The notes under the pieces were generated by a model. That model was not told the origin of the DNA. It did not search any database and worked only from the letters and a program-made list of their open reading frames with translations. A stretch of 36,784 nt of DNA from assembly GCA_015066345.1 (NCBI GenBank), contig SVOQ01000024.1:1-36784 (forward strand), given 5' to 3'. The DNA comes from Oscillospiraceae bacterium (GTDB lineage: Bacteria; Bacillota; Clostridia; Oscillospirales; Acutalibacteraceae). Position 1 is the stretch's first letter, and every line of letters begins with the position of its first letter. Of this stretch, positions 12,190 through 16,713 are shown in pieces. A program made the translations under genes and the position numbers.

Positions 12190-14088
12190 TCAAACTCTCA
12201 TAAGAACAGGTAAAATCATAGGACTTCTTTTTGTTCTTTCGTACATAAGACGTGAAATTTCGTCTTTCAACTTAGTATTCATAGCATTAAGGTCATAACT
12301 GTAAGGCGGGAAACTATCAATAACGTGCATAGAAAGTGCAACTGCCTCTTTCATAAGAAGCTCCGCCTCTTTAACGTAAACAAAGCCTTTGGAAAGCACC
12401 TCGGGACCCGAAAGAAGTTCTCCCGAAGCACCGTCAATGGTAGCGGCAATTATAATTATACCGTCCTGACCTAAGTGAAGTCTCTCTTTCATAACGCGAG
12501 TACCTACATCACCCACGCCATAACCGTCAACATAAATTTTGCCGTTAGCAACAGTTCCCGAAACACTCATTGAGCGTTCACTTAAAGAAACTTCATAGCC
12601 ATTATCGGCAATAAGTATATTATGCGGGTCGATGCCTACACTCTCGGCAATTCGTGCGTGATAACGAAGATGCTTTTGCTCACCGTGAACAGGTATAAAA
12701 TAGCGGGGTTTAACAAGGGAAAACATAATTTTAAGTTCTTCCTGACAAGCGTGACCCGAAACGTGAACATCGTACATCTTTTCGTAAATCACCCTTGCAC
12801 CAAGACGCATCAAATCATTTATAACGCGGTAAACGGTCTTTTCGTTACCTGGAATGGGTCTTGCAGAAATTATAACGCAGTCATTATAGCCTATATTCAC
12901 TTTACGGTGGTTACCCGAAGCCATTCTTGACAAAGCGGACATAGGTTCGCCCTGACTACCCGTTGTAATAATAACAAGTTGTTCGTCAGTATATTTTTTA
13001 ACCTCGTCAATACCGATAAGTGTACCGTCAGGGATATTAACATAACCTAATTCAGAAGCGGTAGCAACAACGTTTTCAAGGCTTCTGCCCGAAAGAGCAA
13101 CCTTACGTCCTGTATGGGCGGCAATATCAATAATCTGTTGTACACGGTGAATATTTGAAGCAAATGTAGCGATAATAATTCGTCTGTCTCCAGCCTGAGT
13201 AAACAAGTTACGGAAAGTTTCGCCAACTTTACTTTCACTTTGGGTATAACCCGGCTGCTCAGCATTAGTGGAGTCGGAAAGCAAACATAAAACGCCTTCG
13301 TTGCCAAGTTCAGCGAATCTCGATAAATCAATAATACCGCCGTCAATGGGACTTGTATCTATTTTAAAGTCACCGGTTTGTACAACAATACCCGCATCAC
13401 ATTTAATTGCGAGAGCAACTGCATCGGGAATTGAATGGTTTACTTTTATAAACTCAACCCTGAAGTCACCGAGGATAATTTCATCACCGGCTTTAACGAT
13501 GTTAATTTTAACCTCGTGTTCAAGTTTGTGCTCGGAAAGTTTACCCATTATAAGACCCGCAGTGAGGAGTGTTGCATAAACGGGAATATTAATCTTTTTA
13601 AGAAGATAACAAAGAGCACCGATATGGTCTTCGTGACCGTGAGTAATTAAAACGCCCTTGATTTTATCAGCGTTACGCTCAACAAATGTAAAATCAGGTA
13701 TTACAAAATCCACACCCAACTGGTCGGACTCAGGGAAAGCAAGACCACAGTCAACAATAAGCATCGACTTGCCGTATTCGTAACAAGTCATATTCTTACC
13801 AACCTCGTTAATACCACCGAGGAATGAAATCTTAACGGGAGTATTACTTACCGGAGGCGTTACTTTTGAGTATAAACCGCCCTGTTTTTTGGTTGTATCT
13901 GTTTTCTTTTTGGACTGTTTATTCTGAGTTTTAGAAGTCTTTTTATTTTCAACAATTTTCTTTTCAACGGGAAGATTTTGTTTATTAGACTTACTCTTTT
14001 TAGAAGTTTCTTTTTTCTTGGTATTTGTTTTAGTCATTTTTTTCTTACCTTGTGGCACAGAATTTTTATTCTTAGTTTCTTTAGCCAT
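12190..14088 (-). CDS. rnj: Ribonuclease J
   Basis: A 632-aa metallo-beta-lactamase/beta-CASP nuclease acting as 5'-3' exoribonuclease and endonuclease in mRNA decay and rRNA maturation. The zinc site HGHEDH begins at H151 by count from the ATG (ITHGHEDHIGAL). The beta-CASP region (FASNIHRVQQIID) and the SGHACQEEL and PVHGEQKHL motifs follow. Residues 1-69 are an extremely Lys-rich, low-complexity extension before the fold begins at about 84; such extensions occur in some clostridial and actinobacterial RNase J proteins. AGGTG at a spacing of 6 nt supports the ATG at 14088 rather than the upstream GTG. It is the first gene of the seven-gene operon ending with ftsH. Confidence 0.94.
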   Translation of the reverse strand: MAKETKNKNSVPQGKKKMTKTNTKKKETSKKSKSNKQNLPVEKKIVENKKTSKTQNKQSKKKTDTTKKQGGLYSKVTPPVSNTPVKISFLGGINEVGKNMTCYEYGKSMLIVDCGLAFPESDQLGVDFVIPDFTFVERNADKIKGVLITHGHEDHIGALCYLLKKINIPVYATLLTAGLIMGKLSEHKLEHEVKINIVKAGDEIILGDFRVEFIKVNHSIPDAVALAIKCDAGIVVQTGDFKIDTSPIDGGIIDLSRFAELGNEGVLCLLSDSTNAEQPGYTQSESKVGETFRNLFTQAGDRRIIIATFASNIHRVQQIIDIAAHTGRKVALSGRSLENVVATASELGYVNIPDGTLIGIDEVKKYTDEQLVIITTGSQGEPMSALSRMASGNHRKVNIGYNDCVIISARPIPGNEKTVYRVINDLMRLGARVIYEKMYDVHVSGHACQEELKIMFSLVKPRYFIPVHGEQKHLRYHARIAESVGIDPHNILIADNGYEVSLSERSMSVSGTVANGKIYVDGYGVGDVGTRVMKERLHLGQDGIIIIAATIDGASGELLSGPEVLSKGFVYVKEAELLMKEAVALSMHVIDSFPPYSYDLNAMNTKLKDEISRLMYERTKRSPMILPVLMRV

Positions 14089-14138
14089 AATTATCACCTA
14101 AATAATCTATTAAAATTAATACTCGAGATATATGTAAC

Positions 14139-14157
14139 GCCGACTTAACAAGACGGC
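14139..14157 (-). other. Hairpin in the rnj 5' leader
   Basis: On the minus strand GCCGTCTT and AAGTCGGC pair with one internal mismatch around a 3-nt loop. It lies in the roughly 90-nt leader between the predicted transcript start and the rnj ATG. There is no U tract, so it is not a terminator. It could protect the 5' end or be part of autoregulation by RNase J, which is only a suggestion. Confidence 0.4.
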
Positions 14158-14183
14158 ACAATACGCTATTTTACTAATTATAT

Positions 14184-14212
14184 ATAATACTATTAATTGA
14201 TAATATTGTCAA
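14184..14212 (-). promoter_or_regulatory. Promoter of the rnj-gdpP-rplI-dnaB-tilS-hpt-ftsH operon
   Basis: Consensus TTGACA (14207-14212), 17-nt spacer, TATTAT (14184-14189). The -35 box contains the TGA stop codon (14209-14211) of the upstream gene on the same strand. Predicted transcript start near 14177. Confidence 0.8.
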
Positions 14213-16182
14213 TAGTTATAAAGACCACGTTCAGATATAAAACGGGTAAGATTTTCTACAATCTCCGTTGCCGTCTCCATTGAATGAGCCTTTGCTTTTA
14301 TTGAAATACCACCTTTTTGATTTTCTTTGATTTTCACACTGCTTAAGCCATCGTTAAAATATATTTCGTCTTTCCTGAAATCAACTTTATTCTCTTGGGA
14401 CAAATCCGCTGCGAGAATCTTTAAACGGCAAGAGTTTTCGATATTTTTCTCTGCAACATAAAATCTTGGCAAATCTTCAACAACTTCCTTTAAAGAGAGT
14501 TTTTCTTCAACTAATATTTTTATGATATAAAAACTCAACAAAACGCTATCAATTTTATAAATTTGATTGAAGTTTTCTAAGCCCGTTTTACGTTGAAAAA
14601 ATGAAACTATTTCCAGTAATTTGGAATAAGGATAAACAATTCCGTCACTTTGAGCCGAAACCTTAGTCCCCCACGGATTAATATTAAATACTACTCGGTT
14701 TTTGCCTGTTTTAAAACCGATTTTTGAGATCGCCAGTTCGGCTACGCTCAGAATCCGTTTGTTATCGCAATAAAACACGGGCATAAAATCAATTGATTCA
14801 TCAAATAAATTGGTAAGGTTTTGAATATACATCCTCTGCATTCCGTGAATCTGACGTATTTTTTTACACTCTTCTTTACCACATCTTGGTATATCCGCCG
14901 AGGATAAAACACTTTTCATATTATAAAAATCTGATTTTGACAATGCGGTTTCACCACTTTTAAATAAGCTTATCACCGTACCTTCATCATTACCGCTTAT
15001 AAATGCTGCACAATCAAGTTCGCAAAAATTCATAAAATAGTGTAGTGACGAAAAAAATGTATTACCGAAATCATAACAAGAGGCACCCGTTGTCATTAAT
15101 CCACCTAAAAATGCAAGTTTTAACGCGGTCGAATTCAATTCTCCGTCACTTGCAACGGCAATTTTGGGCATATCAAAGCAAAGACCCGTAGCAGCACCTA
15201 AAAGTGCGGCTTTTTCAGGAGTATATCCGTAAAAACCATCAGTGGAATTTGTTTCATCCACCTTGTAATTAACAAGCGGACTACTGAGTTCATCCACTCT
15301 TGAAAATGCTCGGATGAAACTATCTTTTTCTAAAACAGACTCTTCGCCAATTGTTACGTCTCGACACAAAACGCAACCATCAAACACCACACTGTTTCTT
15401 CTTAAAACTACGTTTTGTGAAAGCACCGAACCCTCCGTATGACAACCCGAAGAAATATAGGTGTTTTCACCCAAAAAACTATTTCTTACGTGACTGTTTT
15501 GGGCTATTAAACCACCATCCGAGATGACAGTACAAGGACCTATAACACTCCCTTTTTCAATCTGTACATCGTCACCGAAATAAACGGGAGGAATTAACAC
15601 AAAATCGCCTTCGGGAATATTGGATGAAGCGTATATTCCCTGTGCAATTTCAGGTAAACGGTAGGATACTTTACCTGAAAGCGTATCGCAACAAAAAGCC
15701 TTATATTTCAAGGGATTATCGATAATTTTCACATAACTGTTATAAATTTTTTCTTCTTTAACACATTTAAAAACACTTCGCAAATCATCGTCGTTTTCTA
15801 ATAAAATTTTCAAAAAATCCGTGCTTTTTAAAACGCATAAAAAACGTTCATTTTCGCTATTAATCAAACAAAAATTATTGTTTTTTGTTTCGATAAAATC
15901 CAAAAAATCATATTCACCAATGTATACATCCGAATACGTAAAAACAACATTTTCACAGGGGTGTTTTTCAAGATAAATCTTTAATTTATTAACTTCAGAA
16001 AGATATTGTGAGCCATTACTTTTTTCGGATATTTCAAAGATTTTTTGAAAGTCTTTAAAAACATTTTTATATTTTAAAAAGTGTTTTAGAGTTGTATCGA
16101 AAAAAGGAATTTCACAGACGTTATTAATACCAAAGCATTCTTTTAAGGATTTATTACACCTTTCAAGAATCACCGCAACCAT
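14209..16182 (-). CDS. Degenerate nucleotidyltransferase / beta-helix / phosphohexomutase-like protein, likely non-catalytic
   Basis: A 657-aa protein with the layout of NDP-sugar pyrophosphorylase-phosphomannomutase fusions. Residues 1-190 resemble a nucleotidyltransferase that starts VAVILERCNKSL where the family has a Gly-rich GGxGTRL loop. Residues about 195-290 are hexapeptide left-handed beta-helix repeats (IEKGSVIGPCTVISDGGLIA and similar). Residues about 335-655 match the phosphohexomutase fold. The active sites look lost: the phosphoserine TASHNP loop reads ISGNDEG (396-402), the metal DGDxDR loop reads FNINPWG (500-506), and the RPSGTEP phosphate loop reads KENQKGG. It is probably a sensor, scaffold or otherwise repurposed enzyme. 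The ATG at 16182 is preceded by GGGGG 7 nt upstream. It is divergent from rnhA and reads towards rnj. Confidence 0.7.
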   Translation of the reverse strand: MVAVILERCNKSLKECFGINNVCEIPFFDTTLKHFLKYKNVFKDFQKIFEISEKSNGSQYLSEVNKLKIYLEKHPCENVVFTYSDVYIGEYDFLDFIETKNNNFCLINSENERFLCVLKSTDFLKILLENDDDLRSVFKCVKEEKIYNSYVKIIDNPLKYKAFCCDTLSGKVSYRLPEIAQGIYASSNIPEGDFVLIPPVYFGDDVQIEKGSVIGPCTVISDGGLIAQNSHVRNSFLGENTYISSGCHTEGSVLSQNVVLRRNSVVFDGCVLCRDVTIGEESVLEKDSFIRAFSRVDELSSPLVNYKVDETNSTDGFYGYTPEKAALLGAATGLCFDMPKIAVASDGELNSTALKLAFLGGLMTTGASCYDFGNTFFSSLHYFMNFCELDCAAFISGNDEGTVISLFKSGETALSKSDFYNMKSVLSSADIPRCGKEECKKIRQIHGMQRMYIQNLTNLFDESIDFMPVFYCDNKRILSVAELAISKIGFKTGKNRVVFNINPWGTKVSAQSDGIVYPYSKLLEIVSFFQRKTGLENFNQIYKIDSVLLSFYIIKILVEEKLSLKEVVEDLPRFYVAEKNIENSCRLKILAADLSQENKVDFRKDEIYFNDGLSSVKIKENQKGGISIKAKAHSMETATEIVENLTRFISERGLYNY

Positions 16183-16275
16183 CAAACTACCCCCGAAAAT
16201 AAAAAATTAAATATATATCTTTAAAATGTTCCAAAAATATGTTAATATGTAAAAAACTTTTAAAGGATTTGAATT

Positions 16276-16713
16276 ATGAAGAAGGTAGAAATCTTTACTG
16301 ATGGTGCGTGTAGCGGCAACCCGGGTCCCGGTGGTTGGGGTGCGATTTTAAGATATAACGGTGTTGAAAAAGAACTTAGTGGTGGCGAAAAAGACACAAC
16401 CAACAACAGAATGGAATTAACCGCCGTGATTTCCGCTCTTAAAGCCCTTAAAATGCCCTGCGAGGCAGTTGTAACAACAGACTCAAAATATGTATATGAG
16501 TCTATCACGAAAGGCTGGGTTTATTCGTGGCAGAAAAACGGATGGCGAAAAGCAGACAAAAAACCCGCTTTAAACGTTGATTTATGGACAGAACTACTTG
16601 AATTACTTGGTAAACATCAGGTTACATTCAATTGGGTTAAAGGACACAATGAACACCCTGAAAATGAACGTTGTGACCGCCTTGCAGTAGCGGAATGTGA
16701 AAAATACAAATAA
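16276..16713 (+). CDS. rnhA: Ribonuclease HI
   Basis: A 145-aa enzyme that cuts the RNA strand of RNA-DNA hybrids. The four metal-binding acidic residues are present: D9 ([16 protein letters not shown]), E47 (NNRMELTA), D69 (TTDSKYV) and D134 (ERCDRLAV), with the catalytic His at 124 ([11 protein letters not shown]). Length is that of the compact bacterial RNase HI with no N-terminal hybrid-binding domain. AAAGGA precedes the ATG. Upstream, TTTAAA with a 17-nt spacer and TAATAT is a weak promoter possibility. Confidence 0.95.

Follow-up and report, generated by a model that had tools for sequence, protein, structure and literature searches.

Background

The closest relatives of the protein described here are fusions of about 750–850 amino acids, in which a nucleotidyltransferase, a left-handed beta-helix and a phosphohexomutase-like part follow one another, and which are presumably annotated as mannose-1-phosphate guanyltransferase or NTP transferase, of the COG1208-COG1109 type. 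Nothing on this fusion or on its pseudo-mutase part was among the matches listed in our topic searches of the literature. Among better-described proteins, GMPPA has a beta-helix and no mutase part, and its ligand site is located in its nucleotidyltransferase part. An excerpt of PMC11228364 describes it as a paralogue without catalytic activity, which binds GDP-mannose and acts as an inhibitor of GMPPB, and for the phosphohexomutases an excerpt of PMC8573169 places the main contacts of B. subtilis GlmM with CdaA in domain 2. The gene analysed here lies in a 36,784-nucleotide stretch of DNA from an Oscillospiraceae bacterium ("the window").

The gene and its parts

The gene is a minus-strand open reading frame, 16182..14209, of 657 codons plus TGA and, as originally predicted, it is intact, with no internal stop. 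A G-rich stretch lies ahead of the ATG at 16182, which is likely the start codon. Its parts and neighbours are listed below; the names rnj (RNase J) and rnhA (RNase HI) are those we take these two genes to bear.

14209..16182, minus strand: the whole gene (657 codons plus TGA), a syntenic orthologue of the nucleotidyltransferase/beta-helix/pseudo-mutase fusion, from the reading frame, synteny and profile match
15688..16182, minus strand: residues 1–165, eroded nucleotidyltransferase part, some 60 amino acids short of its length in relatives, without the catalytic motifs and least constrained
15283..15591, minus strand: residues 198–300, left-handed beta-helix (hexapeptide repeats, eIF2B-epsilon type LbH), from profile matches
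14893..15222, minus strand: residues 321–430, mutase domain I, catalytic Ser loop replaced; the best-conserved mutase region in the short clade
14212..14892, minus strand: residues 431–657, remains of mutase domains II–IV, metal and phosphate loops replaced, domain III about 40 amino acids shorter than in genus relatives
14184..14212, minus strand: promoter-like site TTGACA-17-TATTAT ahead of rnj, gdpP, rplI and dnaB, with the TGA stop inside its -35 box
12190..14097, minus strand: rnj (RNase J), next gene downstream, a conserved neighbour in the order by synteny
16276..16713, plus strand: rnhA (RNase HI), divergent upstream neighbour, conserved in the genus by synteny

Structure prediction for the window protein and one relative (L085) gave a mean pLDDT of 39, and the fold assignments rest on profile matches. 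The left-handed beta-helix is recognized by PF25084 (LbH_EIF2B) at 54.6 bits (cut-off 54), and its hexapeptide repeats by PF00132 at 35.8 bits (cut-off 27). A search of Rfam with positions 13900–16500 gave no match at E up to 1. We note that the RNase J (12190–14097) has, judged by eye, a Lys/Thr-rich N-terminal extension of roughly 75 residues.

Relatives and gene order

Relatives were found in 44 of the 60 genomes searched; within the window's genus 20 of the 22 genomes have a match, and the two that have none are 76% and 81% complete. Thirty-five loci around the matches were fetched for comparison of their neighbours. The next same-strand gene downstream is rnj in 29 of the 34 loci whose contig continues to a downstream gene (L051 has none and was left out of this count and of the rnj trees), and 30 of 34 is the better count because at L062 rnj lies behind a short opposite frame. 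Upstream, rnhA is divergently placed in 17 of the 19 fetched genus loci; the contig ends there at L054, and L056 has another gene. This fixed place between rnhA and rnj in the genus argues that the gene is the orthologue of the order's long protein and no fresh fusion. Profile-profile comparison of the nine short forms of the genus with 18 long forms aligned 585 columns (E 3.9e-84). By synteny and by this long profile match, then, the window gene is a syntenic orthologue of the 750–850 amino acid fusion, one without the intact nucleotidyltransferase motifs of that family.

In all, 65 proteins (rows) were compared: 30 from the phylum, 16 from the family and order, and from the genus four with intact motifs, six degenerate long forms and nine short forms; L054, which its contig end truncates, does not enter the counts of motifs and lengths. 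The phylum is represented by the 30 best-scoring rows from 159 matching genomes rather than by a random sample. Those 159, of 299 genomes in the phylum sample, match the long profile at E 1e-100 or better and all lie outside the window's class; the window's own gene falls short of this threshold, and the genomes listed without a long-profile match include two of its order and seven of its class. Within 1.5 kb in the 30 phylum loci no other gene of the window was seen; linkage to rnj therefore does not extend to the whole family.

Loss of catalytic motifs

The absence of a GGxGTR loop from the nucleotidyltransferase part was borne out. PF00483 is not among the six Pfam families listed for the window protein at E up to 10, the window locus is not among the five PF00483 matches of its genome, and the motif tables agree; for the 750–850 amino acid fusion, the best named match of the nucleotidyltransferase part is a mannose-1-phosphate guanylyltransferase model, at a score below that model's cut-off. 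GGxGxR and PKP are both present in every phylum (30/30), family or order (16/16) and intact genus row (4/4), that is in 50 of the 65, and both are missing from all six degenerate long and all nine short forms, so the 15 rows without them all belong to the window's genus. The GD motif with its metal-binding Asp (pattern [SN][GA]D[AGCS]) is found in none of the nine short forms, the window itself having SD there, and the metal-Asp column varies among the nine between D, N and S. The letters EKP occur in one of them, L041, at the WCDIGD position and outside the EKP column. The degenerate long forms may not be dead, since four of the six retain the GD motif and five EKP. Locus L048 (genome G017) has a degenerate form of 756 amino acids on a very long branch, with its own broken nucleotidyltransferase loop.

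For the mutase part the yardstick was the three mutases of the window's genome, which carry the three motifs or close variants. The original prediction, that the TASHNP, DGDxDR and RPSGTEP motifs had been replaced, agrees with this comparison: all three columns are altered, with S..GN in the SASHNP column, NPWGTK in the DGDADR column and IKENQKG in the RVSGTEP column, and no shifted copy of the motifs of either half was found. Domain I scores 19.9 bits against PF02878 (cut-off 22.5) with the protein alone and 22.9 bits, above the cut-off, in the genome search, and a profile of the short clade matches a solved mutase at E 2.7e-13. The part is also weakly similar to the GlmM model TIGR03990 (32.7 bits against a cut-off of 439).

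Replacement of the mutase motifs extends to every protein compared. Neither the catalytic Ser loop TASHxP, nor the metal loop by the pattern D[GAPT]DxDR, nor the phosphate loop SGTE is present in any of the 65 rows, and the phylum rows L106 and L112 have a partial metal loop ending in GDR. A pseudo-mutase is thus, to judge by these patterns, the state of the whole family as far as it was sampled. Since the mutase motifs are missing in all 65 rows and the nucleotidyltransferase motifs are kept in 50 of them, only the latter loss belongs to the genus; the nucleotidyltransferase motifs were lost within it. A non-canonical role of the mutase part would be old, as all 30 of the best-scoring phylum rows lack its motifs, and the alignments indicate that the loss of motifs is not one event that created a new protein. 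In a family this common (159 of 299 phylum genomes), with no mutase motifs in any row compared, annotations or pathway models that count it as a mutase would be doubtful.

Shortening and descent

The domain order foreseen in the original prediction stands; the full length that it claimed was wrong, since segment medians show that the short forms are shortened. Their nucleotidyltransferase part has a median of 168 residues, about 60 fewer than the 228 of every other group (184 in a single degenerate row), and the mutase domain III segment has a median of 44 residues in short forms, 84–85 in order and genus and 92 in the phylum, so that it is about 40 residues shorter than in relatives. From beta-helix to domain I the median is 123 in the short forms against 132–133. 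Between the Ser loop and the metal loop it is 140 in the phylum rows and 105–108 in the remaining groups, and the proteins of the order (L059–L074) are accordingly about 35 residues shorter there than phylum rows L086–L115.

The nine short forms fall on one side of a branch, with support of 99 in the gene tree and 92 in the rnj tree. L050, whose motifs are intact, clusters with the degenerate long forms, with support of 96 in the gene tree and of 88/87 in the careful rnj tree, and this suggests that the nucleotidyltransferase was lost independently, at least twice; an AU test on rnj did not reject a single loss (p 0.231, or 0.136 with L048, a long and poorly placed branch, included). Constraint on the gene has been much relaxed in the short clade, as the path between the window and L040 is 0.71 for the gene and 0.12 for rnj, a roughly sixfold faster rate; for L056 and L057, whose motifs are intact, the corresponding paths are 0.30 and 0.67, so that there the gene runs at about 0.45 of rnj.

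Selection on the short form

The fast evolution of the short form raises a reading that we hold unlikely but rank as the main rival, namely that the fusion is useless in this clade and is slowly eroding, its frame open only because the loss was recent or mild. The rate relative to rnj, the loss of motifs and segments in succession and the two genus genomes without a match, although these are incomplete, all speak for such a relic. So does the weak constraint on residues 1–165, for which dN/dS by the counting method is 0.40, and 0.81 against L042, compared with 0.16 overall. The nucleotidyltransferase part is the least conserved part in the short clade.

Several observations weigh against decay. 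There is no premature stop in any of the nine short frames, whose identity goes down to 23% (a TAA flagged in genome G006 is the gene's own stop, overrun by the match), whereas in a neutral simulation of the frame (300 runs) every run accumulated 14 stops or more at the lower divergence and 22 or more at the higher; the nine frames share ancestry and therefore are not nine independent trials. By maximum likelihood, dN/dS between the window and L040 is 0.042 overall and, by residues, 0.155 (1–165), 0.027 (166–300), about 0 (301–430, dS unbounded), 0.008 (431–535) and 0.066 (536–657); as dS is saturated in the short-form pairs, with some fits running to unbounded dS, these absolute values are unreliable and indicative only. 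The value dN/dS=1 was rejected in all 18 tests (three pairs by six regions), the smallest 2dlnL, 9.2, being that of residues 1–165 against L042. The unsaturated pair L052–L053, in which GGxGxR and PKP are already broken, gave 0.082, 0.030 and 0.033 for three parts. Twenty-nine positions are invariant in the nine short forms, 28 of them after residue 165, and ten lie within residues 198–300.

The beta-helix and mutase domain I are under the strongest constraint, and the short form, fast as it evolves, does not look like debris. Purifying selection, which the original prediction had read from the intact frame, is thus upheld by dN/dS and by the simulation. The second half of that prediction, a new role, is not shown, because the mutase motifs are already missing from every family member compared and the genus itself lost those of the nucleotidyltransferase alone. 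An older non-catalytic role, one that persisted after the enzymatic half was lost, fits equally well or better.

Possible function

Both halves have lost their catalytic motifs, and constraint lies on the beta-helix and domain I; the protein is therefore best read as a scaffold or regulator. We infer from the motifs that both enzymatic activities are absent, and give a non-catalytic role of this kind about an even chance. The window gene is one clade's orthologue of a bacterial fusion that joins a nucleotidyltransferase, similar to GDP-mannose pyrophosphorylase, to a left-handed beta-helix and a pseudo-phosphohexomutase. The nucleotidyltransferase reaction would no longer have been needed by the cell, so that this half decayed and the other was kept; the beta-helix would make the protein oligomeric, and the pseudo-mutase part may still bind a protein partner or a ligand, most obviously a sugar phosphate.

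A more specific form of this idea, which strikes us as rather improbable, is that the mutase part is throughout the phylum a non-catalytic sensor that controlled the attached nucleotidyltransferase or another process, and that when the enzyme half was lost in the genus, possibly more than once, sensor and beta-helix were freed and kept. If that were true, the place beside rnj and gdpP would reflect a link from sugar-phosphate status to RNA decay or to c-di-AMP signalling.

The scaffold or regulator might instead act on another nucleotidyltransferase in the same cell as its regulatory subunit, as GMPPA does on GMPPB. It shares domain types with GMPPA and has likewise lost the nucleotidyltransferase catalytic motifs, and other nucleotidyltransferases are retained in the genome: GlgC, GlgD, a GlmU-type half, an unassigned 304 amino acid protein and one fused to choline kinase. 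In the window's genome, however, no second enzyme of GDP-mannose-pyrophosphorylase type was found, and with it no obvious partner to regulate, and it is the nucleotidyltransferase part that is least conserved in the short clade; we regard such a subunit as improbable. The choline kinase fusion of this genome (L034:1291–3078) also contains a winged helix.

That the protein is still an active enzyme, with a non-canonical active site, appears very improbable, although domain I and the beta-helix are well conserved and the solved beta-helix proteins matched include acyltransferases and carbonic anhydrases. No nucleotidyltransferase or mutase motif is left in its column, and the variable metal-Asp column of the short forms also tells against activity. 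Seven of the nine short forms have a Ser where the former catalytic loop begins; this Ser might seem a remnant of the active site, but it aligns with the first letter of SASHNP and not with the catalytic third.

The promoter-like site ahead of rnj

The site TTGACA-17-TATTAT begins one base before the stop codon of the window gene, so that the TGA is part of the -35 box; this is the predicted promoter of rnj overlapping the stop, and it recurs in all 20 genus rows. Each of these has an exact TTGACA between -23 and +19, counted from the stop's first base, and a -10-like box follows after 17 bases. The score of the site was equalled by 0–3 of 200 shuffled copies in 18 rows; the two others are L040 (21 of 200) and L058 (10 of 200). 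The -35 box holds the TGA stop of four short forms (the window, L040, L044 and L045), and in several long forms the box is translated as the C-terminal Leu-Asp or Ile-Asp. In the order set TTGACA is found at most 32 bases from the stop in 26 of 36 rows, and seven of the ten rows without it still have rnj next. The rows with a promoter-like site at the 3' end of the orthologue are L040–L060, L062, L063, L070 and L071, and among them L059 does not have rnj as its next gene.

To judge by this recurrence, the site may help to hold the gene and rnj together, and it cannot account for a constrained frame of 2 kb. That the locus is kept merely for the rnj promoter in its end, the open frame being a by-product, is scarcely credible, for all that the boxes recur in every genus row and the gene order with rnj is conserved across the order, since tens of bases would suffice for a promoter, the 2-kb frame shows amino-acid constraint in every region, and L059 has such a site without rnj next to it.

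Comparison with known systems

The beta-helix of the window protein matches that of eIF2B gamma/epsilon (PF25084, LbH_EIF2B) barely above the cut-off; those proteins are subunits of a eukaryotic translation factor, whereas in the window gene there is no pointer to translation.

A role as stand-in for GlmU was considered and set aside, since both halves, a stand-alone acetyltransferase and a uridylyltransferase, occur in the window's genome, which thus has no need of the window protein as a substitute. GlmU itself looks split in the genus (genome G000, C30:34459–35106 and C8:42264–42995). A stand-alone acetyltransferase half is present in 19 of the 22 genus genomes, above the family cut-off only in G020, and a separate uridylyltransferase half passes 180 bits in three genomes only, G000, G006 (with a TAA) and G013. 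For the acetyltransferase half, genome G010 has a frame of 447 amino acids, and no clear one was seen in G011.

With GlmM-type phosphoglucosamine mutase, an inhibitor of the c-di-AMP cyclase CdaA, the protein shares a weak TIGR03990 match, and gdpP is the second gene downstream; it differs in that the stretch from Ser loop to metal loop is some 35 residues shorter in the proteins of the order. Inhibition of CdaA in the manner of GlmM is speculation only, because GlmM makes its main contacts through domain 2, which is reduced in the proteins of the order. In the GlmM of the window's own genome, position alone did not identify the counterparts of the B. subtilis contact residues.

Animal GMPPA is like the window protein in being an inactive nucleotidyltransferase kept for a non-catalytic role, and differs in having an active paralogue in the same cell, both as described in an excerpt of PMC11228364; no paralogue of that type was found in the window's genome, where other nucleotidyltransferases are present.

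The nearest system remains the 750–850 amino acid fusion itself, which is orthologous, syntenic in the order, and the same as the window form in domain order and in its pseudo-mutase part. It keeps GGxGxR and PKP in 50 of the 65 rows, and the window form has lost both, together with about 100 residues in two segments. Intact, degenerate and truncated versions of the gene occupy one fixed locus within one genus and mark stages in a fused protein's loss of its enzymatic half, a natural experiment on the purpose of the other half.
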